A DNA stretch of 48,112 nucleotides from Candidatus Woesearchaeota archaeon (GTDB lineage: Archaea > Nanobdellota > Nanobdellia > Woesearchaeales > JAGVYU01): positions 1 to 48,112 of the forward strand of contig JAGVYU010000012.1 in assembly GCA_018303105.1 (NCBI GenBank), written 5' to 3'. Every line of letters starts with the position of its first letter. Position 1 is the stretch's first letter. Positions 7,243-36,864 of this stretch are shown here, piece by piece. Position numbers and translations under genes: made by a program. The notes beneath the pieces were generated by a model that had not been told where the DNA came from, ran no database searches, and saw only the letters and a program-made list of their open reading frames with translations.

Positions 7243-8442
7243 ATGCAAGTGGGCATTGTAGGCAAGGCGAACGTTGGAAAGTCAACATTTTTCAAAGCAG
7301 CAACACTGGCTGAAGTGGAGATCGCGAATTACCCTTTCGCAACGATTAAACCCAATACGGGCGTAGGGTATGTGAAAGTCCCGTGTGTGGATAAGGAGCT
7401 TAACACGCAGTGCAATCCAAGAGAAGGATTTTGCATTGAACATAATCGGTTTGTGCCCGTTCAGATGATAGACGTCGCAGGACTAGTCCCGGGTGCTCAT
7501 GAGGGCAAAGGCATGGGTAACCAGTTTCTCGATGACTTAAACCAGGCAGATGTACTTATTCACGTTGTTGACGCAGCGGGATCAACGAATGAAAAGGGGG
7601 AGTACCAGGCTCCAGGGTCAAATGATCCTATTAATGATATCAAATTCCTTGAGATTGAGCTCGACATGTGGTACCTAGGAATGATGAAGAAAGTCTGGGA
7701 ACGGTTCTCACGGCAGGTAACCCAAGAAAATCTTGAGAATTACAAGGCGATTGTCAAGCAGTTCTCAGGCCTCGGTGTGTCTGAGACGATTGCAAAAATA
7801 GCGATGAAGCAACTCAATCTGGAGAGTAAGAAGATCGGCCAGTGGAGTGAAGAGGAAACCTTCCATCTCGCGCAATTGTTAAGAAAGATGACGAAGCCCA
7901 TGATTATTGCTGCGAATAAGATTGATGTTTCTATCGCGCGGGAAAACCTGAAGCGCATGCAGCAGGCGTTTCCAGAGTATAAGATCATCGGATGTTCAGG
8001 AGATTCTGAGCTTGCGTTGAGGGAAGCCGCAAAGCACGGGCTCATCAAGTATATTCCGGGAGAAACGGAGTTCCATATTGTGGATGATGCAAAGCTGAGC
8101 GACAAGCAAAAGGCCGCCCTCGCATTTATCAAAAGCAATGTGCTCGACCCTATGGGAAGCACGGGTGTGCAGCATGTTCTGGACGCTGCCGTGTTCGAGC
8201 TGCTTAAATACATTGCCATCTTTCCCGGGGGAGTGCATAAGCTCGAAGACCAGTTTGGAAGAAGACTTCCCGATTGTTTTCTCATGCCTCCGGGAACGAC
8301 CGCGTTGAGTTTCGCGTTCAGAGTCCATACGGATCTTGGCACTCATTTCATTCGCGCAATAGACGTAAGAACAAAAATGGCCGTGGGAAAGGAACACCCC
8401 TTGAAACATCGGGATATTATTGAGATTGTGAGCGGCAAGTAA
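7243..8442 (+). CDS. Archaeal/eukaryal OBG-type YchF-family GTPase/ATPase
   Basis: GIVGKANVGKSTFFKAATLAEVEIANYPFATIKPNTG, DVAGLVPGAHEGKGMGNQFLDDL, C-terminal TGS-like region. Confidence 0.93.
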   Translation: MQVGIVGKANVGKSTFFKAATLAEVEIANYPFATIKPNTGVGYVKVPCVDKELNTQCNPREGFCIEHNRFVPVQMIDVAGLVPGAHEGKGMGNQFLDDLNQADVLIHVVDAAGSTNEKGEYQAPGSNDPINDIKFLEIELDMWYLGMMKKVWERFSRQVTQENLENYKAIVKQFSGLGVSETIAKIAMKQLNLESKKIGQWSEEETFHLAQLLRKMTKPMIIAANKIDVSIARENLKRMQQAFPEYKIIGCSGDSELALREAAKHGLIKYIPGETEFHIVDDAKLSDKQKAALAFIKSNVLDPMGSTGVQHVLDAAVFELLKYIAIFPGGVHKLEDQFGRRLPDCFLMPPGTTALSFAFRVHTDLGTHFIRAIDVRTKMAVGKEHPLKHRDIIEIVSGK

Positions 8443-9676
8443 TATCCATTCCCAGCTTTTTGAGTTTTGCATCGAACATCATATAGCCCCTCTGGATATG
8501 CTCAATTCCTGATATCATTGTCGTATTCTCCGCAGCGCTCGCTGCCAGAACAAGCGCGGCTCCTGCGCGCAGGTCAGTTGCGGTTACGTTCGCTCCGGAG
8601 AGAGATGCCCCTCCAGGAATATGTGCTGCGTCTCCTTTGACCGTTATCCCGGCGCCTAAGCGGTTTAACTCATTGATATATGCAAAACGCTCCGAAAATA
8701 CAGTATCCTTAACAACGCTTTTTCCCGCTGCCCGGGCAAGCGCAGCCGCTACGATAGGCTGAAGATCCGTTGGAAATCCAGGATACGGCTTTGCCATGAT
8801 ATGCTGCCCTGTTAACGCTCTGTCGCGATACGCCCGCATGACATTTTGTTTTATCTCCGTTCGAATCCCCAGCGCATGCGCGATCTTGATCGGTGTTGCA
8901 AGATGCTCAGGATTCACATTCTGGATTCGAATGTCATTTCCTTGCAGCATTCCTGCGAGGAGAAGAAACGTTCCCGCTTCAATTCTGTCTGGAATGACAC
9001 GCATCCGGACTCCTGACAGCCTGGACACTCCGCTTATTTTCATAGTTCGGTTTTCTACTCCGATATCGACCCCAGCCGCCCTGAGGAAATCGACGAGCTG
9101 CATCGTTTCCGGTTCAATCGACGCGTTAGAAAGTATAGTAGTTCCCTCCGCACACGCAGCTGCGAGAAGGGCCTGCTGTGTCGCCCCTACACTTACGTGA
9201 GGGAAATCAATGCACGCCCCTTTAAGTTTTTTCGCGGTGAGTTCATACTGTCCATGCCTCACGCGTATGACTGCGCCCATTCTTCGGAATACGAGTTCAT
9301 GCAGGTCTGTTGGCCTGGGTCCTAAGATACATCCACCGGGAATGGCGATCGTCGCACGTCCCATCGTGCTGAGCAGCACGGATGCGAAGAGGATAGACGC
9401 GCGGAGCTTTCCCATATGTTCGTACGTTGCTGCAGCTGATGTGAGTTTATTCGCAAAGATTCGGATATGATCCTGTTGTGTTTTGATAGAGACTCCCAGC
9501 TCCTGAGCGATGGAAATCATATTGTCAATATCAGTTAGCGAAGGAATATCCTCAAGTACGCATGGTTTCCGTGTTAATACTGCCGCGGCAATGAGGGGAA
9601 GCGCAGCGTTTTTAGAGCCTGAGATACTCACTGATCCCTGTAATCGTTTTCCGCCTCTGATTACAAAGTTAGCCAT
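8417..9676 (-). CDS. murA: UDP-N-acetylglucosamine 1-carboxyvinyltransferase (MurA)
   Basis: GSVSISGSKNAALPLIAAAVL, catalytic-Cys loop IPGGCILGPRPTDLHE, GFPTDLQPIVAA, TDLRAGAALVLAA. Start set to MANFVIRGGKRLQG. Confidence 0.93.
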   Translation of the reverse strand: MANFVIRGGKRLQGSVSISGSKNAALPLIAAAVLTRKPCVLEDIPSLTDIDNMISIAQELGVSIKTQQDHIRIFANKLTSAAATYEHMGKLRASILFASVLLSTMGRATIAIPGGCILGPRPTDLHELVFRRMGAVIRVRHGQYELTAKKLKGACIDFPHVSVGATQQALLAAACAEGTTILSNASIEPETMQLVDFLRAAGVDIGVENRTMKISGVSRLSGVRMRVIPDRIEAGTFLLLAGMLQGNDIRIQNVNPEHLATPIKIAHALGIRTEIKQNVMRAYRDRALTGQHIMAKPYPGFPTDLQPIVAAALARAAGKSVVKDTVFSERFAYINELNRLGAGITVKGDAAHIPGGASLSGANVTATDLRAGAALVLAASAAENTTMISGIEHIQRGYMMFDAKLKKLGMDITCRSQSQ

Positions 9677-10538
9677 ATGGAATAATCTCCACTTCAGGCT
9701 GCAACAGCACACCTGATTTCTTTTTTACGGTTTTTTGAATGTGGCGGATAAGCCATACAATGTCACGCGACGTGGCATTTCCCGTATTCACTATCCAGTT
9801 TGCGTGATGCTCGGACACTTTAGCTCCTCCTTTTTGAAACCCCTTTAATCCTGCTGCTTCAATAAGCTGCCATGCTTTCCTGCTCTTTGGATTAATAAAG
9901 GTAGATCCAGCACTGGGCTCACTGAGGGGTTGTGTTTGAGTTCGATAGATTAGGGTTTGTTTTATCGTCGCTTGAATAAAGGTGTTTGGCTTGCTCACGA
10001 GTTTAAATGTTGCCTCAACGATAATATGACCCCGCATTCCTCTATGATACGCAAATGAGAGTTTTGATTTGGGCAGTATTTTTGTCCCTTGAGGTGTAAG
10101 CACCGTCACACTCTCTAAGACATCACTCGTCTGCACGCCATATGCTCCCACATTATTTGCGACTGCTCCCCCGACGCTTGCCGGGATTCCTATTAATTTC
10201 TCCAAACCCGAGAGATTATGGGCTGCGCATTTCAAGATAAGGCTTGATAAGGGCAATCCAGCTCCGACGCGTACGCGCTTGCCAGAGAACGTGAGGGCCA
10301 TGAGCTTTTTGAGCGAGATCACGCATCCCTTATACCCCTTGTCGGAGAAGATAAGATTTGAACCTCTCCCCAGGATAACATAGCGTATGTGCTCCTTGCG
10401 CAGCCGTGCAATAAGAGATTGAAGTTCTTGAACATTCTCAGGCGTAGCAAAGTATGATGCTGGTCCTCCCACCTTCATGGTTGTGTGGTGTGATAAGGGT
10501 TCTTTTTCCCGGACATTACGGCTTTTTAGTGCGTGCAT
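9669..10538 (-). CDS. murB: UDP-N-acetylenolpyruvoylglucosamine reductase (MurB)
   Basis: TMKVGGPASYFATPENVQEL, VILGRGSNLIFSDKGYKG, IPASVGGAVANNVGAYG, PSAGSTFINP, GLKGFQKGGAKVSEHHANWIVN. Confidence 0.93.
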   Translation of the reverse strand: MHALKSRNVREKEPLSHHTTMKVGGPASYFATPENVQELQSLIARLRKEHIRYVILGRGSNLIFSDKGYKGCVISLKKLMALTFSGKRVRVGAGLPLSSLILKCAAHNLSGLEKLIGIPASVGGAVANNVGAYGVQTSDVLESVTVLTPQGTKILPKSKLSFAYHRGMRGHIIVEATFKLVSKPNTFIQATIKQTLIYRTQTQPLSEPSAGSTFINPKSRKAWQLIEAAGLKGFQKGGAKVSEHHANWIVNTGNATSRDIVWLIRHIQKTVKKKSGVLLQPEVEIIPYG

Positions 10539-11571
10539 GATCGTTCAGTATTGTTTTAACAATGAGGGGCGTTGGGTTGCCGGGTAGGCATGCTGCGCAT
10601 GCGTTGGACATCGCTCGTAACCTCTTCTGCGTAAGCAAGCGCAAGGTGGGAAGTAGCTCCTTATGAAGCCGTTGCGACGGAATCATGATAGCGGTTCCTT
10701 TATGCGCGGCGTACAGCGCATTATACAACTGGTGGTTGTCCTTCACGTGCGGATGCGGAACGATGATTGCGGGTTTTCGCGCTGCCCATAATTCAACAAG
10801 GCTTGTCGCTCCTGCCCTGCATAGAACAACGTCTGCAGCTGCGTAATAAGCGCTGAGGTCTGCCAAAAAGTCCCGTACAATCATTTGTTTATATGTACTG
10901 TATTTCGGAAGCAGGGGATCATAATATTTTTTTCCCGTGACGTGAATAATGAAGATGTGTTTCTTCTTTAATCGAGGGAGAATGCTGCATACTGCCTCAT
11001 TAATGTCCTTCGCTCCATTCGTGCCTCCAAATGCGAGGAGGACAAACGTGTGTCTGGGGATGCGGAGTTTCTTACGTGATCGTGCTTGGGAAAGATGGAA
11101 GAGATGGGATGCCACGGGATTTCCGCAGAGCATTGTTTTCGATTTGAAATATCGCTCTGGTCCTGGCAGGAATGCAATGTTCAATTTGGAAAACCTGCTC
11201 AGGAGCCGGTTTGCTCGTCCCGGCAGCGCGTTTTGCTCGAAGAGGTATACGGGAATGCGAAGCGATCGCGCAGCGAGCACCGCCGGAATAGTAAAGTATC
11301 CCCCCATGCTGAGGACAATCCCGATTTTTTTTTGTTTTAGAATGGTTCTCGCGTCAAGATACGCTTTCGATAGCTGCATGAGAAACCGAGGAGTTTCAAT
11401 AAGCGTATGCTTCGCTTCAAGATCAAGCAGGAAAGGGGTTCCGGACACATAAGGCTTCATGGCACGGTCCGTGAGATAAAAGACATTATGGCGCTTTCGC
11501 AGCGTCTGTGCGAGCACATTCCCCGGCTTGACATGGCCCAATGTTCCCCCCGCCACGATTGCAATGCGCAT
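10516..11571 (-). CDS. murG: Lipid II synthase-type glycosyltransferase (MurG, GT28)
   Basis: MRIAIVAGGTLGHVKPGNVLAQTL, FEQNALPGRANRLLSRF, FGGTNGAKDINEAV, CRAGATSLVELWAARKPAIIVPHPHVKDNHQLYNA. Confidence 0.92.
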   Translation of the reverse strand: MRIAIVAGGTLGHVKPGNVLAQTLRKRHNVFYLTDRAMKPYVSGTPFLLDLEAKHTLIETPRFLMQLSKAYLDARTILKQKKIGIVLSMGGYFTIPAVLAARSLRIPVYLFEQNALPGRANRLLSRFSKLNIAFLPGPERYFKSKTMLCGNPVASHLFHLSQARSRKKLRIPRHTFVLLAFGGTNGAKDINEAVCSILPRLKKKHIFIIHVTGKKYYDPLLPKYSTYKQMIVRDFLADLSAYYAAADVVLCRAGATSLVELWAARKPAIIVPHPHVKDNHQLYNALYAAHKGTAIMIPSQRLHKELLPTLRLLTQKRLRAMSNACAACLPGNPTPLIVKTILNDHARTKKP

Positions 11572-11696
11572 GATATGATGACAGATCGCTGATTTATAAA
11601 GATAGTGGACCATAGCGGATCGAGATTGCGTAAACACTGGGCTATTTAAGAATGCGGTAAACTTATAAAACCAAGCTGTGTTTCTAAGGGGGACGT

Positions 11697-12044
11697 ATGA
11701 AAAAAACAGGCCCTGTTTTAACGGGAATAGGTGCGAGCGCTGGCATCGCGGAAGGATTCGTTAAGATCGTGGAGGGAATACGAGACATATCAAAATTTAA
11801 CGAGGGGGATATTTTGGTGACGGAAATCACTGAACCTTCGATGGTGATAATGATGAATAAGGCTGCGGCCATTGTAACAAATCTGGGTGGGATAACCTCT
11901 CATCCGGCTATACTTGCCCGTGAGCTCGGGATCCCCTGTGTTGTTGCAACCAAAACGGCTACGACCATGCTGAAGGAAGGAATGAAAGTTAAAGTTGACG
12001 GGACCAAGGGTGAGGTCTACATCGCTGAAGATGATAAAGAATAA
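11697..12044 (+). CDS. Stand-alone PEP-utilizing enzyme mobile (swivelling phospho-His) domain
   Basis: ITSHPAILARELGIPCVVATKTATTMLKEGMKVKVDGTKGEVYI, the phospho-His domain of PpsA/PPDK/PTS EI, with no attached PEP-binding or ATP-grasp domain. Confidence 0.85.
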   Translation: MKKTGPVLTGIGASAGIAEGFVKIVEGIRDISKFNEGDILVTEITEPSMVIMMNKAAAIVTNLGGITSHPAILARELGIPCVVATKTATTMLKEGMKVKVDGTKGEVYIAEDDKE

Positions 12045-13131
12045 CCAGCAGCAGTATCCTGAATGGATAGATGAGTTTGCTAGATCGTTTCATCATGCCT
12101 TTAAAAAAATGGTTCCTACAAGCTGGGGTCCTGTTGACGGGTGGGCGCTGCTCTCGCATCTGAATGGCTCTTTTATAAGGAAACTTCATCAGTCGGTTAA
12201 GAAGGTAAAAGAAAAAGAGACCTCTATAAAAGAAGTTGCTGAGAGTTTTTCTTGCCCTTCAACACTACGTCTTGCTTTATATTTTCTCGCCCTTGAATAT
12301 CAGTTCCAAAGCGACAAGGATAAAAAGCAATTCAAAGAGATAATAGAGTTTTTTATTGATGTTCTTAAAGAGATGATCAGAGAAGATATTTTTGCATATG
12401 ATAGAAACATCACACATACCTCCGAGGAAATAAAAAATATCGTAAACAGTACTCCATGGATAAAAGCAGACATTCCCATGGCAAAGGAGGTTGGAAAATT
12501 ATATAGTAGCTTAGCTTCTTTGGTGTATGCAGAGTATAGGGATTTTTTCCCCCAAGATGCACATGATATTTATGGACCCTATGATGTATCGAGCAAATTC
12601 GGGAACGAAGCAATCCTCCTTATAAAGCACTTCATAAAAATTCGCCCTAAGGAAATATGGCCAGATCTCAAATCTTCCTATGATGATGTAAAAATATTTC
12701 AGGTGCTGAAGCACGTTAAATTCAGTTGTGAAGTTATTGGTATGCATTCTCTTTATGAAGGAGATATTGTGAGGAATACCGTTGCACTAGCAGTAAGGAT
12801 TAACAACAAATTCGTTGATGATATACGTGAGGTCGGGCGTGCTCATGAAGAGATTGCCAGAATCGCCACCGACCATTCACGGGTATATGGGGACATGTCC
12901 GAGGCAGAAGTAAAACTTAAGTTTTTGGAATGGTTATGCTACCAGTTCTTTGGATTCTTCCGGATAGCGAATGTTGACTGGCGTCCTACTCAGGAAATGA
13001 TGAGGAGTGTTAAAGATAAGCAAATTCCGAATAGATGTGAAATTAAAGAATTTCCATCATGGGAAGAATACCGCTCAAGTAAGAACTTTGAAATCTTCTG
13101 GTTAAAAGATTTGTACCATAACAGTCATTGA
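12031..13131 (+). CDS. Hypothetical helical protein
   Basis: 366-aa ORF overlapping the preceding gene by 14 nt; no family recognised. Confidence 0.6.
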   Translation: MIKNNQQQYPEWIDEFARSFHHAFKKMVPTSWGPVDGWALLSHLNGSFIRKLHQSVKKVKEKETSIKEVAESFSCPSTLRLALYFLALEYQFQSDKDKKQFKEIIEFFIDVLKEMIREDIFAYDRNITHTSEEIKNIVNSTPWIKADIPMAKEVGKLYSSLASLVYAEYRDFFPQDAHDIYGPYDVSSKFGNEAILLIKHFIKIRPKEIWPDLKSSYDDVKIFQVLKHVKFSCEVIGMHSLYEGDIVRNTVALAVRINNKFVDDIREVGRAHEEIARIATDHSRVYGDMSEAEVKLKFLEWLCYQFFGFFRIANVDWRPTQEMMRSVKDKQIPNRCEIKEFPSWEEYRSSKNFEIFWLKDLYHNSH

Positions 13132-13158
13132 AAAAAATGAAGAAAAAAAGGACACACG

Positions 13159-14049
13159 CTAGAGTGAAGCAACAACAAAAACAAGAGTTAAAGTGAGGGT
13201 GAATATCCAAGATGTGACTGCGATCGTCTGCTCCCCCCATCCAAGCCGGAGAAGCACATAGTGAAATGGCGCGATGGGGAAAAGAGTTCTCCCAAGAACC
13301 ATTCGGGAAAGGATTTGAACAATTGATGTTCCTCCTTCTATAACAATAAAAAGTCCAGCGATAAAAACGAAATATTTGAGCTTTGCGAAGATCGCAATCA
13401 TCGCGAGGAGTGATCCCAATAAGCTGGCCCCCGCGTCTCCCATGAACAATTTCGCGCGCGGAGCATTAAACACAAGAAAACCCGCGGTTGCTCCAATCAC
13501 TGCAAGGACAAATGGTACAAGAGCTGTTGACGCAATGGCCAGGAGTATGAAAAACAGGCCTGAGAGGATAATGATAAAGTTCCCCGCGGCCATGCCATCC
13601 AAACCGTCTGTAATGTTGAATGCGTTCACGAAAAATACGAGGAATAATCCGTTAAACAGGAGATATGGGATGCTTCTTGACGTGGTATAATAAAAAACGA
13701 TGCAGAACGCGACTGCGAGAATGAATTGAAGGATGAGTCGAGTTCTCCAGCGCAATCCCGTCGCGCTTCTCCGCGTGATCTTCAGGGCATCATCGGTTAC
13801 GCCTATCGCAAAAAAGAGTGTGGCAAAAACGAGGATGATAAAATAGTCTGACGTATAGAGGAAAGGTAGAGAGGCAACAAGCGCAAGCAATATGATGATG
13901 CCACCCATCGTCGGCGTTCCTTGTTTCTTCTTGAATGACTGTAAGAGCACGAATTCTTTAATTCCAATCTTGCGTGCAAGAGGAATATAGAAGAGTCCAA
14001 ACAGTACACAGAGGATTAGAGGTACAAAAAAGCTAAGCGCCATACTCAT
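13159..14049 (-). CDS. mraY: Phospho-MurNAc-pentapeptide transferase-like (MraY, GT4-type PNPT)
   Basis: KKKQGTPTMGG, GVTDDALK, NAFNITDGLDGMAAG, LFMGDAGASLLGS, PIAPFHYVLLRLGWGEQ; multiple TM helices. Confidence 0.9.
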   Translation of the reverse strand: MSMALSFFVPLILCVLFGLFYIPLARKIGIKEFVLLQSFKKKQGTPTMGGIIILLALVASLPFLYTSDYFIILVFATLFFAIGVTDDALKITRRSATGLRWRTRLILQFILAVAFCIVFYYTTSRSIPYLLFNGLFLVFFVNAFNITDGLDGMAAGNFIIILSGLFFILLAIASTALVPFVLAVIGATAGFLVFNAPRAKLFMGDAGASLLGSLLAMIAIFAKLKYFVFIAGLFIVIEGGTSIVQILSRMVLGRTLFPIAPFHYVLLRLGWGEQTIAVTSWIFTLTLTLVFVVASL

Positions 14050-14072
14050 GAACTGTAGCTCAGAATGCGGAT

Positions 14073-15815
14073 TTATAAGGTTTTGGGCACTTTCAGGAAG
14101 GGCGTGGGATCCACGGGGATTTTGTTCTTTCGTACCTCAAAATGGAGATGTGTGTAATCATAAACGGTTCCATCTGAGGGTACATTTCCTGTTCTTCCCA
14201 CATATCCAATGCACTCACCGACTCGCACAGTTCTTGGATGACCCTCGAAACTGTCCAAATGTGCGTACCAAAACTCAAAATGTCCGCGCGCGACAATAAC
14301 CGTGTTCCCATAAAGATCCGATATCTCGTGGCGCATACGTCCACGTGCCACGGAGTATACCGGGTCTTTCGCATCCGCAGGCAAATCAATCCCTGTATGA
14401 TAATCGCCGCCTCGTGCCGCCATATAGTATCCAATCGGACGTGGCACCACATGTGCAGCAAGTGGATATGCTTTCGTGTTTGAGTTGTGTTTAATTTGGC
14501 TTGCGAATGTGTCAAGCCCAACCATGCGCGACCCTTTGAGGAGGATAGCATCTCCTGGTTTTGTGTAGGAGAACAGCGCTTTGGTAAGGAGTTCTTTAGT
14601 TGCGCAGAGAGTATATTGGAGATTGCTCTTCCTGAGTACCTTGGCGGTAGTGCGAACATGTTCACCTAACAGAAAAATATGGTCGAATGGAGCTCTAGCA
14701 ATGATGCCTGCTGCTTCTTCATGTTTTTTCGCAGTCCATTTTCCAAGCTCGGCCATATCCCCAAATACAATTAACTTTCTTCTTTTTCTTGTGATCGCAA
14801 CAAACGCCCCTACCGCATTTGCGAGGGATGCGAGATTCGCGTTGTATGAGTCGTTGTAGATGAGCACGTCATTAACAAAGAAGACCTGAGACCTGCCCTG
14901 AAGAGGGAGATAATTGAGCATTGCGTTCTGGATATCCCGTGAGGAAATGGAAAACTGCGATGCAACTGCGATCGCTGCGAGTGTATTGAGCACGTTATGC
15001 GTTCCAGGCACGGGAATCCGCAGCGTAAAAGATTCTCCTGGAGTGTTCACGCGACCGTTCGTAGCTCCGTCTGGAAGTATCCGAATCGAATGAGCTCGAA
15101 TGTGTGCATCAGGGTGTATTCCAAACGTGACAACTTTTGTTTTTGCAAGCGCGTGCATGGCGTCATAATATGGAGAATCCCTATTGAGCACAATGATCGA
15201 ATGCTTGACTGTGTTCAAGTAGCGTATAAGCTCTGTTTTGGCTTCGAAAATCGCCTTCTGAGATCCAAAAGCGCCAATGTGCGCATCATGAATGTTTGTA
15301 ATAATCCCAATAGACGGTTTAGACATCCTGCACCGATGCATGATCTCTCCCTTCTTGGATACGCCTGCCTCCAGAACGGCGATATCATGGTGTGAGGTTA
15401 AGCGGCTCAATGTCAGGGGAAATCCCTGCTCACTATTGAAGTTTCCGGCGGTTTTCAGCACAGAATATTGTGTGCTGAGCATGAGCGCGAGCATTTCCTT
15501 CGTCGTTGTTTTCCCATTGCTGCCGGTTATAAACACAAGCGGTATGCGAGTACGGGCTCTTCGGAACGCTGCAACATCATCAATGGCTTCTTGAACACTG
15601 GCCACACGAATAATTCGCTTGTCCTTCGGAGCTTGTTTTTTGTTTGTAAAGATATATGCTGCTCCCCTCGTGAGCGCATCTTCAACATAGTCGTTTCCAT
15701 CAACATATCTCCCTTTAAACGCGCAAAAAATGTCTCCTTTTTTGATTAGTCTTGAATCTATCTGTAAACGTGCATGAAGGGCTGCAGTTTTTGAGAGACG
15801 GCTAAGCACGCTCAT
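14073..15815 (-). CDS. murF: MurF-type Mur ligase with C-terminal M23 metallopeptidase domain
   Basis: MurF part: KKGDIFCAFKGRYVDGNDYVEDA, FITGSNGKTTTKEM, GNFNSEQGFPLTL, YNDSYNANLASLANAV. C-terminal ~133 aa: HTGIDLPAD (HxxxD), YAHLDSF, HLHFEV (HxH). Confidence 0.92.
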   Translation of the reverse strand: MSVLSRLSKTAALHARLQIDSRLIKKGDIFCAFKGRYVDGNDYVEDALTRGAAYIFTNKKQAPKDKRIIRVASVQEAIDDVAAFRRARTRIPLVFITGSNGKTTTKEMLALMLSTQYSVLKTAGNFNSEQGFPLTLSRLTSHHDIAVLEAGVSKKGEIMHRCRMSKPSIGIITNIHDAHIGAFGSQKAIFEAKTELIRYLNTVKHSIIVLNRDSPYYDAMHALAKTKVVTFGIHPDAHIRAHSIRILPDGATNGRVNTPGESFTLRIPVPGTHNVLNTLAAIAVASQFSISSRDIQNAMLNYLPLQGRSQVFFVNDVLIYNDSYNANLASLANAVGAFVAITRKRRKLIVFGDMAELGKWTAKKHEEAAGIIARAPFDHIFLLGEHVRTTAKVLRKSNLQYTLCATKELLTKALFSYTKPGDAILLKGSRMVGLDTFASQIKHNSNTKAYPLAAHVVPRPIGYYMAARGGDYHTGIDLPADAKDPVYSVARGRMRHEISDLYGNTVIVARGHFEFWYAHLDSFEGHPRTVRVGECIGYVGRTGNVPSDGTVYDYTHLHFEVRKNKIPVDPTPFLKVPKTL

Positions 15816-16803
15816 ATATGTACCGGGCGAGTTTCCTCACTTCTGGATTAAAGCTCAGCTTGAATTTTCCGTACCCTTGAATATTTGGTTTATGACCTAT
15901 GAGGGAGATAGGAAATAATCCCCACAGATTATACTCGGTATGCCCTAAAGTCTTGTAGTGTTGGATAATTCGCCATTGGAGCAGGTTATTTGCCGCAGTT
16001 TTGAACGCAACATCGTTGGAAGCGCCGTATACCCAGTTGATTTTTCGCTTGAATTTCCATATCCATGCTGCTGCGATAATCTCGGAATTGCGCCTCGCGA
16101 TCCACATATCTGCACCATCGTGCTCACGATACTTTAAAAATTTGTGCCTAAGAGCCTTGAAGGGTAAAACCTGTGCTCCCTTCGCATGCATACGTTTCTC
16201 ATAGAGAGCGTAGAAAGATATGAATGCATTATCGCTGTTATCAATGGCGATCGCCAGCGACTGTTTCTCCGCATAGCGTATAGCCGTTCTGCATTTTTTA
16301 TTAAAGGACATGAACAGAGAATCGAGTGGTTGCTGAAGATCTATGAGCGTTGTGATATCCTGTTGGTCTGTACATTGCCTCTTTCCACTGACAAGCGAAA
16401 TGGCATTGTCAGCATAGAGAATAATTTTCAGCGCTCGAGTTACGCGCGGCAACTTCATGATTTCCGTAAACATCATACGGCAAAGCGTTTTTCGGTGCCT
16501 TACTGAGTCAATAATCACAGGAGCATTTCCTGAACGCGTGCCAAACTCAATACCTGTGCTTAACCAGGGCACGCGAAACTTAAGGAGGCTTTTCAAAGGG
16601 TGCCCACGCTCGGCATAAACCTCGCCCACAAGGACGGCAATCGGCTGTCCATGCTCATACGCGCAGAGATACACACAAGGATGTCCAATGTCTTGCTGAG
16701 TCATGTAGTAGAGCGGCGTATGGAAAAAATTCGCGTCCTTGGAATGCGCAAGAACATATTCCCAATCCTCAATATTAACGTCTGTTCTGAACGTGGTGCT
16801 CAT
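15802..16803 (-). CDS. FemABX/peptidyltransferase-like GNAT-fold protein
   Basis: SLFMSFNKKCRTAIRYAEKQSL, WIARRNSEIIAAAWIWKFKRKINWVYGASND, NNLLQWRIIQHYKTLGHTEYNLWG, YGKFKLSFNPEV. Confidence 0.85.
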   Translation of the reverse strand: MSTTFRTDVNIEDWEYVLAHSKDANFFHTPLYYMTQQDIGHPCVYLCAYEHGQPIAVLVGEVYAERGHPLKSLLKFRVPWLSTGIEFGTRSGNAPVIIDSVRHRKTLCRMMFTEIMKLPRVTRALKIILYADNAISLVSGKRQCTDQQDITTLIDLQQPLDSLFMSFNKKCRTAIRYAEKQSLAIAIDNSDNAFISFYALYEKRMHAKGAQVLPFKALRHKFLKYREHDGADMWIARRNSEIIAAAWIWKFKRKINWVYGASNDVAFKTAANNLLQWRIIQHYKTLGHTEYNLWGLFPISLIGHKPNIQGYGKFKLSFNPEVRKLARYIYERA

Positions 16804-18196
16804 GCGGCAGCTGCTCCGTATATTTCTGTAATGCTCCTTCAAAATTGCTTGAGGACATGAAGAGGACAGCAGTTGGGATTGAACCGTGGCGTTTGAGATA
16901 TGTCACAACGACTTCAGCGGTCTCAATACACTGAACATGAGGATGTTTGAGAATCCGCGCATAGTCTTGAGGTGTTGCAAGCTGTTCTTTCGTGAGAAGC
17001 CGTGATGGCTGCACCCGGTAAATAATCACTTCATCAGCGTCGTTGAATGAATCCATGTAGCGTGCAACATAGCGTTTATTCCTGCTGCTTCCCGTATACG
17101 GTTCAAAGAGCGCTATGAGGTGATGGTGGGGAAACTTCTGCTTCACTGCTCGCACGGTCTCACGCACTTTGCTCGGCTGATGCGCGAGGTCATCAATGAC
17201 GATGAGTGTAGGGCTTTTATACACGATCTCCTGCCTGCGCTGTGTTCCTCTAAATGTCCGAAGCGCTTTTTCAATTGCGGAGTCTGGTATTCCAAGCGTT
17301 TTCGCAACAAGGATCCCGGCGAGCATGTTTTCGACATTGTGCTCTCCATAGAGAAATGCAGCATAGTGATTTGATTTTCCTTCGTAGAGAACATCAAATG
17401 TTGTAAGCGGATTATAGATGATGTGGCGCGCAGAAATGGCTGATGAGGGCTGTAGTCCGTATGTTAATCCGGTTTTTTCGGCATGGGTAAGCACAACAGA
17501 AAGTTCTTTGTTGTGGTCAGATACTATGACGTGGGCATCGGATTTAAGACTTTGGAATAAGTGAACATATGCTTCCTGATATTCCTTATCCGTCGGATAC
17601 ACATTAATGTGATCAAGTTCAGCGCTTGTGAGTACAACGATATCAGGATGGTAATACATGAATTTCGGCTTTTGATCCGCATCTGAGCATGGATATTCGT
17701 CGCCTTCAATAACAAAATACTTTGATTTAGTGATGCGGAAGCTTTTGTCAAGGTTTTTTGGGATGCCGCCAATCAAATAGCTGGGTTGCTCTCCCGCGGT
17801 TTCGAGAATCCACGTTATGATCGCCGTTATCGTTGTCTTTGCGTATGTGCCCACAACGCATATGACCGTGTAGTCTTTGAGGATATCCTCAAGAAGCTCT
17901 GGGAAGGACACAATTTTGATATTTTTCTTCTTCGCTTCTACATATTCTGGATTGTCCAGGAAGGCATGCCTTCCCAAAACGACAAGATCTATATCATCCG
18001 TAATGAATGTAGCATCATACCCGGATTTTTTGAGGATTCCCCGCTTCTCAACAATCGTTTTAACGGGATCGTACGCCTCGTCATCCGAGCCTGTCACTAT
18101 GAATCCCTGGTCCTTGAGCTCAATCGCAATTGCGCTCATAGCAACACCCGCAACTCCAATGAAATGGATTTTTTTAATGCCTTCGAGCATATGCAT
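16775..18196 (-). CDS. Mpl-like Mur ligase (UDP-MurNAc:murein-peptide ligase subgroup of the MurC/Mpl family)
   Basis: IHFIGVAGVAMSAIAIELKDQGFIVTGSD, VVGTYAKTTITAIITWILE, Mpl-type FVIEGDEYPCSDADQKPKFMYYHPDIVVLTSAELDHINVY, GEHNVENMLAGI, DDLAHQPSKV, FEPYTGSSR. Confidence 0.85.
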   Translation of the reverse strand: MHMLEGIKKIHFIGVAGVAMSAIAIELKDQGFIVTGSDDEAYDPVKTIVEKRGILKKSGYDATFITDDIDLVVLGRHAFLDNPEYVEAKKKNIKIVSFPELLEDILKDYTVICVVGTYAKTTITAIITWILETAGEQPSYLIGGIPKNLDKSFRITKSKYFVIEGDEYPCSDADQKPKFMYYHPDIVVLTSAELDHINVYPTDKEYQEAYVHLFQSLKSDAHVIVSDHNKELSVVLTHAEKTGLTYGLQPSSAISARHIIYNPLTTFDVLYEGKSNHYAAFLYGEHNVENMLAGILVAKTLGIPDSAIEKALRTFRGTQRRQEIVYKSPTLIVIDDLAHQPSKVRETVRAVKQKFPHHHLIALFEPYTGSSRNKRYVARYMDSFNDADEVIIYRVQPSRLLTKEQLATPQDYARILKHPHVQCIETAEVVVTYLKRHGSIPTAVLFMSSSNFEGALQKYTEQLPHEHHVQNRR

Positions 18197-18235
18197 TGGG
18201 CACAGAGAATGTTTATAAAGATTGTGTGGATATAA

Positions 18236-19267
18236 ATGGAGATGAAGCTTATTCCGATCATTGCAGCGACATTCTTACTCGTGGGTTGCTCTGGCATCTC
18301 CGACAAACCCGATGCATCGCGCGGCATCTACCTCAACGCGTGGCTTGCGGGAAATGAAATCCGGCTAAACGAGTATGTTGTACGTATGCGCAACACGGGA
18401 ATAAATACTGTAATTATTCACATGCAGGACACGGACGGCATTTTACCGTATGATTCAAAGATTCCTTACGCAATTGAGATTAACGCGACAGAAATACGCA
18501 TCAAGAACGTCTCTGCGTTAGTTGATCGGCTCCATGCTGATGGATTCTATGTTATTGCTAAAGTGGATACGTTTAAGGATAGAAAATTAGCATATGCGCA
18601 TCCAGAGTACGCATTTTCGTATAAGAATGGCTCTCTCTTCGAAGACCGGTTTGGAGTGCACATTGACCCGAATAATCCGGTTGTGTGGGAGTATAAAAAA
18701 GCAATCTACGAAGAGATGTTTGATTTTGGATTTGATGAAGTAATGATTGATTATATTCGGTATCCAGAGCGGGCATACTATGGTGCTCTTAATTCCCCTT
18801 TCACGAAGGGTGATACAAGTATGGAAACTATAGAAGGATTTATGCAATATATACGGGCTAGTCTTCCGTATCAGACTTTTTCTGTGGCGATTTTCTCTAA
18901 TGTATGTCTTGGTGAAGACCATGCGATTGGCCAAAGTGTGGATATCTTTGCACCGTACGTTCAATATATATCCCCCATGCTCTATGTTAGCTTAGATCCA
19001 TATGAGCCCTGGCAGGATGCACGTGGATTTATCGCCAAAAGGACAGAGGCATGCCTCATCAGGATTCAAGGCTCCAATGCCAAACTCCGTCCTTGGCTCC
19101 AGGGATACTCGGACAGATACCAGACTATGAATGCTTCTGCAATACAGCAACAAATAAAAACAGTTGAGCGTTTCCCTGGCGTCGCAGGATGGCAAATATG
19201 GAATTCGGCTGGAAACTATAATGCAACGTTCAAAGCGCTTGAGGAGAATAAGAGTAACCGCGGCTAG
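18236..19267 (+). CDS. Putative secreted glycoside hydrolase-like lipoprotein (DUF4015/GHL-like TIM barrel)
   Basis: Lipobox LLVGC; GIYLNAWLAG, HMQDTDGILPYDS, VIAKVDTFKDRKLAYAHPEYAF, FDEVMIDYIRYP, PWLQGYSDRYQTMNASAIQQQIKTVERFPGVAGWQIWNS. Confidence 0.75.
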   Translation: MEMKLIPIIAATFLLVGCSGISDKPDASRGIYLNAWLAGNEIRLNEYVVRMRNTGINTVIIHMQDTDGILPYDSKIPYAIEINATEIRIKNVSALVDRLHADGFYVIAKVDTFKDRKLAYAHPEYAFSYKNGSLFEDRFGVHIDPNNPVVWEYKKAIYEEMFDFGFDEVMIDYIRYPERAYYGALNSPFTKGDTSMETIEGFMQYIRASLPYQTFSVAIFSNVCLGEDHAIGQSVDIFAPYVQYISPMLYVSLDPYEPWQDARGFIAKRTEACLIRIQGSNAKLRPWLQGYSDRYQTMNASAIQQQIKTVERFPGVAGWQIWNSAGNYNATFKALEENKSNRG

Positions 19268-20012
19268 CGTTCTCATCCTGATCATCTGTATCAGTGTATT
19301 GCTCTTCATCCTCACACCTTCAGTAGATAATGTTGAGGGATATCGCCCTAAGGCAGAGTTTGTGTACAATTCCCCTCTTGGTTCAGACGTCACTTTAAAT
19401 GCAACAAACAGCTCATACATCCCATTGAATGACCTTCCTGATTTTTTAGTGAAAGGTATTGTGGCAGTTGAGGATCGCAGATTCTATTATCACCCCGGCA
19501 TTGATCCTATCGCGATCGCGCGTGCGGGAGTCCAAGCTGTCCGGAATCCAGAGAGAATTCAAGGTGCAAGCACAATCACGCAGCAGCTCGCACGCTCGGC
19601 ATATCTAAGTCAGGAAAGAACACTCTCCCGCAAGATGGAGGAGATGATTCTTGCTTTAAAGATCGAATATGCATACCCAAAAGAGAAAATCCTTGAATTT
19701 TACTTCAATGACGTATTCTTTGGGGATCAGATATATATGGATGTATCATATGACCTTACAGTGTACGGTGTTCAGGATGCATCACGATTTTTCTTCGGGA
19801 AAAACGCTTCTAACCTGAGCATATCAGAGGCAGCTTTTCTTACTGCTATACTCAAAGGTCCAAATTATTATCTGACAAGACCTGAAGAGCTTGAAAAACG
19901 TAGACAAGTAGTGCTTGAGATTTGGAGTAGGGAGCATATTATTTCTGAAGAAGAGTATTTAATAGCTCTCCGAGAGCCTACGCAGATAGTACAATCCAAA
20001 GCCGCATCGTAA
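19221..20012 (+). CDS. Monofunctional peptidoglycan transglycosylase (GT51) with N-terminal TM anchor
   Basis: AVEDRRFYYHPGIDPIAIARA, GASTITQQLARSAYLSQERTLSRKMEEMILALKIEYAYPKEKILEFYFNDVFFG, AAFLTAILKGPNYY. No transpeptidase domain. Confidence 0.92.
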   Translation: MQRSKRLRRIRVTAASVLILIICISVLLFILTPSVDNVEGYRPKAEFVYNSPLGSDVTLNATNSSYIPLNDLPDFLVKGIVAVEDRRFYYHPGIDPIAIARAGVQAVRNPERIQGASTITQQLARSAYLSQERTLSRKMEEMILALKIEYAYPKEKILEFYFNDVFFGDQIYMDVSYDLTVYGVQDASRFFFGKNASNLSISEAAFLTAILKGPNYYLTRPEELEKRRQVVLEIWSREHIISEEEYLIALREPTQIVQSKAAS

Positions 20013-21206
20013 TACGGCCATGATGAGCAGCGCAGATGTTGTTGCAATAGCCCCTCCGATCATGCCATAACCGGGGATTAAAAGCGCGTTGAGGATAATA
20101 TTTGCAACAGCCGCCACAGCCGCGATTGCAAGGATAAGCGGTGTTTTCTTCATGGACGCCAATGTTGAGTTAAAGACGCTGAATGGTAAGGATACAAAGT
20201 ATCCCCATGCAAGGATAACTAGGGGTATAACCCCGAGGATATATGCCTCTCCAAAAAAAGTCTGCAGGAGAATCCTTGGGAAGAAAATAAAAAGCAAAAA
20301 CAAAGGCGCGCTGAGGATGAGAATTGTGAAAAATGATCGTATTACCAGTGATTTCGCTTCCTGTGTTTTTTCCGCCATAATGTGGGTTGTCATTGTGGGA
20401 ACAAAGAGGTATAATACCGCTTCCTGAACAACGAGAAGGAGCGCCGCTGTTGGAAGCGCAACGCTGTATATCCCTGCCTCTGAGCTTCCCCTGATGTATC
20501 CAATCATTAAGACATCTGTCCATCGGATGATTAAGTAAAAGAAGCCTGAGAAAAGGAGAGGTAATGAGTAGAGCAGGGGTGTTCTAAAGTCGTATGATGA
20601 CTGTGAAAAGGAGGGCCAAACAAGAAAGAATGCGATTACGCATGTAATGATGAGGGTAAGCGCATGCGCCCATGCTGCCATGGACACCGAGAGAACGAAT
20701 GAGAACAAGAAGAGTGTGAGCACGACTTTAAGGACGCTGTCTCCAAGGTAGCGTAATGAGACATTCGCAAAGATTCGCTTCTCCGCCTGCAGGACAGAAA
20801 ACAGAAGCCATCCGATTGACGCAAAGGGTATGCTTATGGAAAGGATTCTCAGAACTGTTGCAAGCTCCTGAATCTTAAATCGCTCTGCAAGCATTGGCGC
20901 GAAAAACCAAAGCAGTACTGCCAGGAAGATGGAGGCAATACATGCAAGGACAAGCGACGACACGAGATACTGGTGTTGTTTGCGCGGCGCTCCTTTGTAA
21001 TAGGGAAGATGGCGCAAAATACCCTGATCCAGACCAAGAACGCTGATCGTGAACACGATGCCAAAGATAGCCAGGGCGATGCTGAAGACTCCATATTGCT
21101 CTGGCCCGAGCTTAGAGAGGACAATTCGATAGACATAGCCGAGGAGTTTAGCGAGGGATATAGCAATGAGAACAATCCCTGTTGCTGATGTGATTATCTT
21201 GCGCAT
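19959..21206 (-). CDS. MOP-superfamily polysaccharide/lipid-linked oligosaccharide flippase (Wzx/MurJ-like)
   Basis: Multi-TM with GYVYRIVLSKLGPEQYGVFSIALAIFGIVFTISVLGLDQGILRHLPYY; NIILNALLIPGYGMIGGAIATTSA repeat signature. Confidence 0.85.
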   Translation of the reverse strand: MRKIITSATGIVLIAISLAKLLGYVYRIVLSKLGPEQYGVFSIALAIFGIVFTISVLGLDQGILRHLPYYKGAPRKQHQYLVSSLVLACIASIFLAVLLWFFAPMLAERFKIQELATVLRILSISIPFASIGWLLFSVLQAEKRIFANVSLRYLGDSVLKVVLTLFLFSFVLSVSMAAWAHALTLIITCVIAFFLVWPSFSQSSYDFRTPLLYSLPLLFSGFFYLIIRWTDVLMIGYIRGSSEAGIYSVALPTAALLLVVQEAVLYLFVPTMTTHIMAEKTQEAKSLVIRSFFTILILSAPLFLLFIFFPRILLQTFFGEAYILGVIPLVILAWGYFVSLPFSVFNSTLASMKKTPLILAIAAVAAVANIILNALLIPGYGMIGGAIATTSALLIMAVLRCGFGLYYLRRLSESY

Positions 21207-21250
21207 TAAGTTGATTTATGATTTATGCATAAAAAGGTTTGGTAAGCACA

Positions 21251-21373
21251 GGCTTCGGTGAAAGTCTCTTCTGGCCTAGCGACGCGAAAGTTCATTTTTC
21301 GTCCTCCAACCAGCTTTCTGATGGTAGCTCCTCGCTAAACCGTCAGGATGGGCCGGACATTTTCACCAAAGCC
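21251..21373. repeat. MITE-like or structured ncRNA element with terminal inverted repeats and flanking direct repeats
   Basis: GGCTTCGGTGAAA(21251-21263)/TTTCACCAAAGCC(21361-21373), one mismatch, flanked by GTAAGCACA at 21242-21250 and 21374-21382 (both followed by GG). Internal pairings such as TAGCGA/TCGCTA. Confidence 0.6.
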
Positions 21374-21418
21374 GTAAGCACAGGAATATTTATAATAGGA
21401 AAGTCATGTGATCACGGT

Positions 21419-22648
21419 ATGCTGCGAAGGAAGAGCAAATTAGAAAATCGGGATTTGGTAATACTTGGCTTTTTACTTTTGGCCTTGTACTCCGCTGCAG
21501 TCTTCTATATCAATAAGCTCCCATTAATGGGCGATGAGAGCATTCATTATTTCCAAATAAGACAATTCATGGTCGGTAACTATGAACTGCATCATGCCTT
21601 AACGACCATCCCCGGATATAATCTTATTTTGGCCGGCATGGGGGGGATATGTAATGTATTCTCCGTTTTTGGCATGCGATTATTCTCATCTCTTTTTGGG
21701 TTGGCAGCGATTGGAGTTTTCTTATTGATATTAAAAGGGATGAGACAAGAAAGTGGAGATAAAATGATTTTGCGGACATTGCAACTCATGTTTCTTCCAT
21801 TAATCGGACCATTTTTCTTTTTGTTATACACGGATGTTCTTTCTCTGCTTTTCATTCTGCTTACGGCGTTTTTCATAATCAAAAAGCAGCATACATTTGC
21901 AGGCCTTATGGCAATCCTTGCTGTATTGATAAGGCAAAATAACATTGTGTGGTTAATATTCTTCCTGGCGTTAGCGTATGAGGCTCGGTTCAAGTGGAAA
22001 ATAAACCGTTCAAACATAATAAAGGGTGTAGGGGAATTCTGGGTATTTCTTCTCGGCATAATCGGTTTTTTCTTCTTTATTATTCTGAACCAGGGTTTTG
22101 CTGTGGGAGATAAGTCGGCTCACCCCCCATTTAGCTTTCATACAGAGAATCTTTTTTTTGCATTGTTTGTCTATTTCTGGGTTTTTCTGCCTCTTGTTTA
22201 TTGCAGAAGACATAAGATTATTCAATTGTTCCATGATTGGAAAACGGTCTCCATAATCACTATTGCGGCAGCAGCCTATTTTTTATTGTTTCATGTTACA
22301 CATCCATACAATGTGTTTCTCACCGAGGATTATATGAGAAACCGCATACTCGCCTTATTTGGTATAAATCTCTGGATCAAGGGTCTGCTTTTTATTCCTA
22401 TTGGTCTTGGTCTTCTCACACTCATGTCTCAAAAAATAAAAAATCAAGTGCCATTTTATATTTTCAGCGCGTTGTTTCTTCTCCCCTCGTGGCTTATTGA
22501 GCAGAGGTATTATATCATTCCGTTCGTCCTCTTTTTGACGTACCGCGCTATGGAAAAAGAATCATATGAACAGACACTCGTTATTTGGTTTATGATGTTG
22601 GTGGCAATAATATTTTGGATCGTTGGAGGATTGGGCATATTCCTATGA
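21419..22648 (+). CDS. DIE2/ALG10 (GT59)-like membrane glycosyltransferase
   Basis: GDESIHYFQIRQ, HALTTIPGYNLILAG, FFFLLYTDVLSL, LIRQNNIVWLIF, GDKSAHPPFSFHTENLFF, LIEQRYYIIPFVLF, in the same order as eukaryotic ALG10 motifs. ATG at 21419 preferred over the ORF-track start 21239. Confidence 0.85.
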   Translation: MLRRKSKLENRDLVILGFLLLALYSAAVFYINKLPLMGDESIHYFQIRQFMVGNYELHHALTTIPGYNLILAGMGGICNVFSVFGMRLFSSLFGLAAIGVFLLILKGMRQESGDKMILRTLQLMFLPLIGPFFFLLYTDVLSLLFILLTAFFIIKKQHTFAGLMAILAVLIRQNNIVWLIFFLALAYEARFKWKINRSNIIKGVGEFWVFLLGIIGFFFFIILNQGFAVGDKSAHPPFSFHTENLFFALFVYFWVFLPLVYCRRHKIIQLFHDWKTVSIITIAAAAYFLLFHVTHPYNVFLTEDYMRNRILALFGINLWIKGLLFIPIGLGLLTLMSQKIKNQVPFYIFSALFLLPSWLIEQRYYIIPFVLFLTYRAMEKESYEQTLVIWFMMLVAIIFWIVGGLGIFL

Positions 22649-24021
22649 GGTGGTCAGATTGGATTTTCGGAGCGGTTTTTGTATACTGTAGCGCAAGTGT
22701 GATATCCTATTTGCTCAACGAACACTACATTGTCATCCTTTTGGGGTTAATGTTTCTAATTTTGGCCTGGTTTTTTTATGATAAAGCGGTGTACTTTTTT
22801 CTGCTGACAGCGCCTTTCATGCCACTCTATGCGCCAGGACACATGACGGATGCACTGCCCGGAGCATCACTGATGATTTTGCTGCTGTTGTCGGTATGGT
22901 CGTATCGTAAAGTGGTGGATCAAAAGTCCATGAGAATTATAACCCTCGACAAGGCTGTGATAGTATTTGGCGGGTGGTTATTGGTGACATATGTCGTGCA
23001 TGCTTCCAATCCATTGGACAGTTTCAGGATGCTCATAAATTTCATTTCAAATTATGGCCACTTGCCTGTAATTTCTCTAATGTACGTGGTCCAAGGGATC
23101 GCTGTGTACTTTCTCGTGACGGACGGTTTACAAAACAAGATACTGGATAAAAAATTAATAGTATCAACACTGGTTGTGTGTCTGATCCTTATTGCAGGAT
23201 ACGGGATCCTTGATTCAATGTTAATTGACAAAAGTGAATTTTATCATGGAAAGAATAGGGCAACTTCTTTGTTCTTTGATCCGAATTCTTATGGAACATT
23301 TTTGATATTGCTCTTGCCTCTGGCTTTTGCTTTGTATAAAGAGGACTCGTGGATATCTAAGCTTGCGATCATTCTTGGTGTGATTGGGCTCACCACGACC
23401 TTTTCGAGGGGTGCGTGGATTGGCGTAATTTTTGGAGGAGTGTATGGTGGCACCTTGTGGCTTAATCATAGATTGAAACTCGTAAAATCAGCAAGGACAT
23501 ATTCATTAGTCCTTATGATAATACCTTTGCTGCTCATTATTGGTTTTTTGGTTACAGCTGCTATTGGAGATCCTCTTACCGTACAGAGGAAGTTGCAGGG
23601 GAGATGGTATCTTTGGAATGCGGGAATAAACATGGCAGAGAGGACTCCCCTAGTTGGTGTTGGCATCGGAAGATATAATGAGAACTTAAAAAACTATTAT
23701 GATGAAGGTATTGAACCGTGGACCACATATGAGCATGCACACAACTGGTATATACAGATAGGTTCGGAAGCAGGAGTCATTGGGTTATCCCTCCTTTTTC
23801 TTATTTTAAGTTTAATCCTGATCACAGGATTCATAAAGATTCGAAAAAAAGGCAATAGTCTTGATTACATGTTGTTGATTGGAATAGTCGCTGTGCTTAT
23901 ACATTCATTGCTTGATTATACCGTCCGACAACTTTTTATTATTATTCCGTTTTGGACGCTTATTGCTCTTTTGAACAGTCCACGACAAAACAAGAAAAAG
24001 GCAAAAAAGAGAAAGAAGTAG
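22645..24021 (+). CDS. O-antigen ligase-like (Wzy_C) membrane protein
   Basis: TTTFSRGAWIGVI, RWYLWNAGINMAERTPLVGVGIGRY, YEHAHNWYIQIGSEAGVIGL; ATGA start/stop overlap with the ALG10-like gene. Confidence 0.88.
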   Translation: MRWSDWIFGAVFVYCSASVISYLLNEHYIVILLGLMFLILAWFFYDKAVYFFLLTAPFMPLYAPGHMTDALPGASLMILLLLSVWSYRKVVDQKSMRIITLDKAVIVFGGWLLVTYVVHASNPLDSFRMLINFISNYGHLPVISLMYVVQGIAVYFLVTDGLQNKILDKKLIVSTLVVCLILIAGYGILDSMLIDKSEFYHGKNRATSLFFDPNSYGTFLILLLPLAFALYKEDSWISKLAIILGVIGLTTTFSRGAWIGVIFGGVYGGTLWLNHRLKLVKSARTYSLVLMIIPLLLIIGFLVTAAIGDPLTVQRKLQGRWYLWNAGINMAERTPLVGVGIGRYNENLKNYYDEGIEPWTTYEHAHNWYIQIGSEAGVIGLSLLFLILSLILITGFIKIRKKGNSLDYMLLIGIVAVLIHSLLDYTVRQLFIIIPFWTLIALLNSPRQNKKKAKKRKK

Positions 24022-35982: not shown

Positions 35983-35983
35983 G

Positions 35984-36862
35984 TTAGTTGATGAGTGTTG
36001 GCCTCCTGCTGCGGATCATACCAAGGAACATGACCTGGAAAAACAAGACCATGCCGTAGAGGCCCCAGAAGATCATTTGCGCCGCGAATTCGTCGAGCGC
36101 TATGAAGCTGCTGAGGATAATAAGAAACGTCATCCCTAAGGCAGGGAGGATAATTGCGATGAGCATGTAAAACATGGCTAAGGGATTTAATGTGGATCCA
36201 TAGTGCTCAATTTCGAGCAGCTGTTCCCTGGAGAGGGTTTCTATAGCTTCTTTGAGCACGCTTTCTATCGGAGCCCCGGCTTTCATCCCGTCTGCGATCT
36301 GCCACAGCGCCCTGCGGAAATAGATGCTGGGATTTTCCTGTCCGAGCTGCTCAAGGACATCAACCTCAGGCAGTCCGGAGTTTATTTTGCGCACGGCCCG
36401 CTTAAACTCGACAGAGACCTCTCCATACTGCTCCGTGCTGATCGCGACGAGGACATTGAACAAGGGAACTCCCGACCTTACCTGAATCAGAATCGTGCGC
36501 AATGCTCCTAAGAGGTTGCGCTCAATGCCCTTGATCCTGCGGGCGGCGATGAGCCTCGGGTAGTAGAGCTGCTGCATGAACACAATGCAGGAGAAGGCAA
36601 GCGCGACAAAGATGCCCAAAATATAATTTCCCTGCTTCGCGAAGAGGAGTGTGAGCACGGCGCCAAAAAAGATGAAGAGCGTCGTTGTTGCGGCAAGGCA
36701 CTGCGCGAGATAACCCCGTGCGGATATGGAAAGTTCCGCCTGCAGCAGATTAAGCTTGAGGAATGGGAAAAAATTCAGCAGCAGGTCCGCTGGTCCCATG
36801 AACAAACTTGATGTTTTTTCAAGGAGTGCCGGCGGCAGAAGTGAGAAGGGAATGCGTACCAT
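35984..36862 (-). CDS. Type II/IV secretion system F-domain protein (TadB/FlaJ-like)
   Basis: LLGALRTILIQVRSGVPLFNVLVAISTEQYGEVSVEFKRAVRKINSGLPEVDVLEQL; TM helices. Confidence 0.85.
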   Translation of the reverse strand: MVRIPFSLLPPALLEKTSSLFMGPADLLLNFFPFLKLNLLQAELSISARGYLAQCLAATTTLFIFFGAVLTLLFAKQGNYILGIFVALAFSCIVFMQQLYYPRLIAARRIKGIERNLLGALRTILIQVRSGVPLFNVLVAISTEQYGEVSVEFKRAVRKINSGLPEVDVLEQLGQENPSIYFRRALWQIADGMKAGAPIESVLKEAIETLSREQLLEIEHYGSTLNPLAMFYMLIAIILPALGMTFLIILSSFIALDEFAAQMIFWGLYGMVLFFQVMFLGMIRSRRPTLIN

Positions 36863-36864
36863 GG

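Follow-up and report, generated by a model that had tools for sequence, protein, structure and literature searches.

Textbooks characterise Archaea by, among other things, having no murein. Where an archaeal wall polymer is made with Mur ligases of bacterial origin, as in the pseudomurein of Methanobacteriales and Methanopyrales, the pathway relies on dedicated pMur ligases and a protein resembling MraY and does without MurA, MurB or GT51, and a 2025 survey of pseudomurein describes MurCDEF and MraY as specific to bacteria (PMC11915815). Murein-related genes have also been described in DPANN archaea, but these encode lytic transglycosylases, i.e. degrading enzymes aimed at bacteria (PMC8204110, PMC9723730, PMC10936187). 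The locus considered here is, in contrast, a biosynthetic set found in an archaeon of the same kind: an island of bacterial-type murein genes at positions 8417-21206 of contig JAGVYU010000012.1 (C2), the whole of which, 48,112 bases in length, is the window that was analysed. It comes from the draft genome of a Candidatus Woesearchaeota archaeon (GCA_018303105.1; 1.30 Mb in 72 contigs, 92.1% complete, 1.6% contaminated). Together with MurE, which is encoded on a second contig (C7), the island appears to provide a murein-precursor pathway whose sugar and lipid steps are complete, while enzymes for de novo synthesis of the stem peptide and for cross-linking are not found in the available genome.

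With the bacterial murein pathway the locus has in common the enzyme families themselves, the position of MurE and MurF inside bacterial clades and the retention of catalytic residues. It differs in its archaeal host, in the lack of a detectable MurD, Ddl, MurI, DapF or transpeptidase, in having Mpl in the place of MurC, in a fusion of MurF to an M23 metallopeptidase domain, and in the splitting of its genes over two contigs without the division and cell wall (dcw) gene order. A second point of comparison is bacterial murein recycling, in which Mpl joins the tripeptide L-Ala-D-Glu-meso-diaminopimelate (mDAP) to UDP-N-acetylmuramic acid (UDP-MurNAc); when overexpressed, Mpl from E. coli can also complement a murC mutant, if weakly (PMC3060825). 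The archaeal ligase is likewise of the Mpl clade and would act on UDP-MurNAc, but here it would be the sole entry point for the peptide rather than a side route. In the open-licence literature no report was found of an archaeon with MurA, MurB, MurE, MurF, MraY, MurG and GT51, nor any description of a MurF-M23 fusion, and a murein pathway that lacks the known enzymes for cross-linking and for making the peptide de novo would be new for an archaeon.

Sugar, lipid and polymerisation enzymes

A preliminary description of the window had placed MurA, MurB, MurG, MraY, MurF, a FemABX-like protein, an Mpl-like ligase, a GT51 transglycosylase and a MOP flippase within the island, and every one of these was recovered in its place, far above chance. 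It had also described overlapping genes within two minus-strand runs, which holds for murA/murB/murG and for murF/femX/mpl, but not for mraY, which lies 23 bases away from murF.

The two enzymes predicted to make UDP-MurNAc are the most readily assigned. MurA (UDP-GlcNAc enolpyruvyl transferase; 8417-9712, minus strand, with a likely ATG start at 9676) scores 445 bits with TIGR01072, above the curated cut-off, and has PDB matches to 32 different bacterial MurA sequences, each with an E-value of about 5e-74 or lower; its alignments keep PGGC, PTDLQ and TDLRAG, and with them the active-site Cys, Asp and Arg. MurB (UDP-MurNAc dehydrogenase; 9669-10538, minus strand) likewise exceeds the cut-offs of both TIGR00179 (236 bits) and PRK13905 (314 bits), and aligns with a solved bacterial MurB, PDB 4pyt, at E 6e-59.

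For the lipid-linked steps, MraY (phospho-MurNAc-peptide transferase; 13159-14049, minus strand; TIGR00445, E 8e-43) retains the motifs DD, DGLDG and GDAG together with one of the three histidines of the HHH motif, and all its PDB matches are to bacterial MraY. MurG (lipid II GlcNAc transferase; 10516-11637, minus strand, likely ATG start at 11571; TIGR01133, E 9e-67) has both GT28 domains and the motifs GGTLGH and EQN. Polymerisation would fall to a monofunctional GT51 peptidoglycan polymerase (19164-20012, plus strand, likely start at 19221; PF00912, E 1.6e-55), which matches PDB 2oqo at E 1.5e-38, keeps EDRRFYYHPG and GASTITQQ and has a single N-terminal membrane helix (residues 26-58). The candidate lipid II flippase is a MOP-superfamily transporter (19959-21206, minus strand; PF01943, E 2.5e-24, and PF01554) with twelve hydrophobic segments, matched also by the TIGR00797 MATE and SpoVB models. 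Judged by these predicted enzymes, the sugar and lipid steps of the pathway are complete in the genome.

Overlapping the GT51 gene is one for a DUF4015 putative glycoside hydrolase (18236-19267, plus strand; PF13200, E 7e-59), the N-terminus of which is hydrophobic and lipobox-like. The island is followed on the right by genes for membrane glycan enzymes (21239-26184; ALG10-like, O-antigen ligase/polymerase-like and PTPS-related, with matches to PF04922, PF04932 and PF10131), suggesting a further surface glycan system beside it. Further along the window (35011-46339), T2SSE/T2SSF-type secretion genes stand near a gene for a 1633-residue protein with VWA domains, possibly a surface adhesin.

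Peptide ligases and the enzymes not found

Only three Mur_ligase_M genes are present in the genome, and no MurD-type ligase is among them; the four-ligase set of bacteria is thus represented by MurE, MurF and, in place of MurC, a Mur ligase of the Mpl clade. In a tree of 55 Mur ligases the archaeal MurE is nested in bacterial MurE and MurF in MurF. MurE (L054:9032-10474 on C7, minus strand) scores 596 bits against a cut-off of 373 and carries the motif DNPR, which is usual in enzymes of the meso-DAP type. Directly downstream of murE lies a gene for a histidine-specific (EgtD-like) methyltransferase (L054:7862-8974), and two open reading frames (ORFs), at L054:6917-7804 and L055:9623-10795, resemble LAGLIDADG homing endonucleases by eye and may be regarded as candidates for these.

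The ligase at 16775-18196 (minus strand) is the one whose assignment required most care. A reading of it as MurC was at one point favoured, both by the profile scores (274 bits with TIGR01082 as against 247 with TIGR01081) and by a tree without Mpl sequences, but was overturned once these were added: the protein then joins four Mpl sequences at 100/98, on a long branch and with MurC excluded, which bears out the earlier label of "Mpl-like". Its best plasmid-borne matches are annotated as Mpl, and both the Mpl-specific tyrosine (the equivalent of Tyr182) and the extra loop or insertion of Mpl are present.

The MurF gene (14073-15815, minus strand; TIGR01143, 369 bits, above cut-off) encodes in addition a C-terminal M23 metallopeptidase domain (PF01551, E 1e-16) at about residues 470-570, and no transmembrane segment is found in the protein. 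The metal and catalytic site of the M23 domain is complete (HTGID at 473-477, H519 in YAH, and HLH at 556-558, corresponding to HxxxD, the catalytic His and HxH). In an AlphaFold model the MurF part has predicted local distance difference test (pLDDT) values mostly above 90, and its first structure matches are MurF crystal structures; the M23 part is below 50, because relatives carrying M23 were left out of the model input. A loose parallel to the fusion is known from Helicobacter pylori, where the cell-shape complexes to which MurF and the M23 enzyme Csd1 belong are linked with each other (PMC9507126). Between the genes for MurF and the Mpl-type ligase lies one for a FemABX-like aminoacyl transferase of the GNAT fold (15802-16842, minus strand; PF13480 and PF02388).

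Profile searches of the 92.1%-complete genome, of the same kind as recovered the pathway genes that are present, found no D-Ala-D-Ala ligase Ddl (PF07478), no MurI or Asp/Glu racemase (PF01177), no DapF (PF01678), no D,D-transpeptidase domain (PF00905) and no YkuD L,D-transpeptidase (PF03734). What is missing, therefore, are the enzymes for D-amino acids, for the second residue, for D-Ala-D-Ala and for cross-linking, whereas the sugar and lipid steps are all there, and the simplest reading of this pattern would be that the backbone is the organism's own and the peptides are obtained ready-made.

Archaeal host, relatives and origin

That the host is archaeal, with the island as part of its own genome, is solid, because it follows from the flanking genes, from unbroken composition and codon usage, and from the presence of MurE among archaeal informational genes on the second contig. 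Flanking genes of archaeal character include those for TruD, adenylate kinase, KaiC, the T2SSE/T2SSF-type proteins and, immediately to the left, an Obg-like GTPase with a YGR210-like G4 domain (7243-8442, plus strand; PF08438, E 2e-36), the gene for which shares 26 bases with the 3' end of murA. On C7 the neighbours are topoisomerase VI A and B, RIO1, a KRR1-type KH protein and a HerA-type ATPase, and a Toprim protein near murE resembles archaeal DnaG. Archaeal markers thus stand on both contigs, as the idea of an archaeal host demanded. A break in composition at the island edges had been named in advance as the sign of a chimera, and none was found: in codon usage the island lies at a distance of 0.05 from its flanks, as against at least 0.13 for bacterial murF genes, and in tetranucleotide content it correlates at 0.89-0.93 with the flanks and with the second contig, as against at most 0.39 with the four bacterial loci compared. 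The host is presumably of DPANN type.

For comparison, 371 genomes of the phylum were available; the order numbers 353 genomes, a size to be expected of Woesearchaeales or a comparable DPANN order, and the host's own family one only. MurB occurs in six of the 371, namely the host and five genomes from f27, a different family within the order, while MraY and MurG are confined to the host among the 19 genomes of interest, a single weak MraY-like match in G004 (E 3e-5) having been set aside. A counterpart to part of the island is seen in G127, from f27, which has a FemX homologue adjoining both Ddl and a MurF-M23 fusion, plus murB-murA on one contig. The fusion thus occurs in one genome each of two families of the order, with 44% identity over the M23 part and the metal-site residues kept in both, and in G127 its MurF lacks the N-terminal domain. 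Two f27 proteins (L161 and L162) with an apparent N-terminal membrane segment carry M23 domains related to that of the fusion and are a possible source for it.

As to origin, when MurF was compared with the species genomes of bacteria and archaea, the 80 best loci were all bacterial; among these none exceeds 35% identity, none has an M23-fused MurF and none reaches far into the M23 domain, so that recent transfer from a sampled bacterium can be set aside. A single acquisition in common with f27 was also considered but finds no support: the archaeal MurA and MurB fall into two or three groups in the trees, with weak deep support. The trees, which sample bacteria outside the candidate phyla radiation (CPR) and have long branches, do not single out a donor phylum; several acquisitions or one old acquisition are both possible.

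A number of other observations were made in the order. Between the two minus-strand runs of the island stand two plus-strand ORFs (11697-13131), the first of which (11697-12044) encodes a stand-alone PEP-utiliser mobile (phosphohistidine-type) domain (PF00391, E 5e-27). This domain, beside murG, has homologues near murA/murB in two relatives (L013 and L011, on G091 C31, and L015/L016, from G215), where tandem proteins of about 480-500 residues each end in such a domain and lie on the same contig as murA/murB. The second ORF (11995-13131, plus strand), of 378 residues and without a Pfam or NCBIfam match, was tried as kin of these proteins and shows no similarity to them. Other families of the order carry bifunctional proteins like class A penicillin-binding proteins (PBPs), combining GT51 with PF00905 (L019, L028, L032 and L020, the last from the single-contig genome G004). 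In L019 and L020 the transpeptidase motifs PGSSFK, SxN and KTGT are present, and in G004 neither MurB nor Mur ligases were found; they thus resemble the island in having GT51 but differ from it in being bifunctional and, where tested, in lacking MurB and Mur ligases. In GT51 proteins of f27 and G469 (L022-L026) no SxxK serine of the transpeptidase type can be recognised, and proteins of the YkuD L,D-transpeptidase type occur in two archaeal relatives with MurA and MurB (G069:C7 and G290:C33; L071 and L072).

A proposed salvage-fed pathway and its alternatives

The reading that we prefer, and to which we would assign a probability of roughly one half, is that the archaeon acquired and has long kept a bacterial murein-precursor pathway, which now runs on salvaged stem peptides and lacks cross-linking by PBPs or YkuD enzymes. 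If the genes are expressed, MurA and MurB would make UDP-MurNAc, on to which the Mpl-type ligase would load a ready-made, probably bacterial, muropeptide, and MurE and MurF would extend or complete the peptide. MraY would then move the product to an archaeal polyprenyl phosphate, with FemX perhaps attaching a branching residue; MurG would add GlcNAc and the MOP transporter would flip the lipid-linked unit, to be polymerised outside by the monofunctional GT51 into a MurNAc-GlcNAc polymer without cross-links of that kind; the M23 domain on MurF probably serves to trim or check the peptides that go into it. It is plausible that the backbone consists of MurNAc and GlcNAc, and the peptide part looks salvage-fed or altered. 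That the outcome is a real wall polymer, half made and half scavenged in that the backbone is self-made and the peptides are taken from bacteria, is put forward a little more tentatively. The preliminary description had proposed a true MurNAc-GlcNAc polymer, and of this the capacity to make one survives, since MurA, MurB, MraY, MurG and GT51 could do so, but true murein in full is not supported, none of MurD, Ddl, MurI, DapF, PF00905 and YkuD having been found in the 92.1%-complete genome.

Several points weigh against a salvage-fed pathway. If a whole tripeptide were salvaged, MurE would be redundant, and no muropeptide importer was identified in the genome. In the Mpl-type ligase the extra loop and the peptide-pocket residues are partly replaced ((S/T)AFFDKRSK becoming CSDADQKPK, and EPRSNT becoming EPYTGS), and the UDP loop is MurC-like. 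Two assignments fall below their NCBIfam cut-offs, MurG slightly (225.5 bits against 250.25 for TIGR01133) and MraY with 147 bits (against 192 for TIGR00445, the WecA model giving E 1e-9); despite this, each predicted protein matches its own family best by far, and the motifs agree. Finally, with a single genome that is 92.1% complete, the missing genes may sit in the unseen 8% or so.

The alternative that survives best, though we consider it somewhat unlikely, is that the enzymes are real but their product is other than a wall polymer: a short MurNAc-peptide glycolipid, a modified exopolysaccharide, or a decoy or signal. The surface-glycan membrane genes that directly follow the island would suit this, as would the absence of a cross-linking enzyme from the genome. 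Relatives in f27, moreover, keep MurA and MurB, and often GT51 proteins, mostly without murein-type Mur ligases, and UDP-MurNAc can therefore serve other ends in the order. Against it, the GT51 motifs are intact, and in all known cases the combination of MraY, MurG and GT51 serves to form lipid II and polymerise it.

It is less likely again that the organism makes ordinary, complete murein, with murD, ddl, murI, dapF and a transpeptidase either located in the 8% that was not assembled or so divergent that the profiles miss them. The genome is, after all, in 72 contigs and incomplete, G127 has Ddl beside its MurF-M23 and FemX, and the DNPR motif of MurE is of the meso-DAP type. However, six separate functions would have to be missing together while nine pathway genes were found (six independent misses at 8% each come to about 2e-7 if unlinked, a figure that clustering of the genes would weaken), and the first ligase groups with the recycling enzyme Mpl, not with MurC.

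The remaining explanations are far less probable. A degenerating relic pathway without a present product might account for the long branches of MurA, MurF and the Mpl-type ligase and for the incomplete gene set, but the frames of the island are all open with no internal stops, the checked catalytic motifs are nearly all intact, and the genes are tightly packed with overlaps. An assembly chimera or bacterial contamination is still harder to credit: no small-subunit (SSU) rRNA was found in this metagenome-assembled genome (MAG) and there is but one genome from the host's family, yet the composition of the island, the setting of MurE on a separate contig, the recurrence of the MurF-M23 fusion in the order and the distance of the closest bacterial MurF among the 80 best loci all speak against it. 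As for a pseudomurein-type pathway as in methanogens, which likewise relies on Mur ligases and a relative of MraY (PMC11915815), it can be dismissed with similar confidence, as the preliminary description had anticipated, since the pMurC, pMurD and pMurE models reach at most 91 bits against cut-offs of 550-610 and the MraY_archaea model 86 against 450, whereas the bacterial models for MurE, MurF, MurA and MurB pass theirs, the PDB matches of MraY are bacterial, and the pseudomurein route has no use for MurA, MurB or GT51.

With MurA, MurB, MurE, MurF, MraY, MurG and GT51 all embedded in the genome of an archaeon, the question of murein in Archaea becomes directly testable. Should the polymer exist, a DPANN archaeon would be predicted to be sensitive to fosfomycin or to GT51 inhibitors such as moenomycin, and to depend on bacterial neighbours for D-amino-acid peptides. 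It would also mean that the murein pathway is able to pass from one domain of life to another and to operate there on archaeal lipids, with its peptide supplied by salvage.

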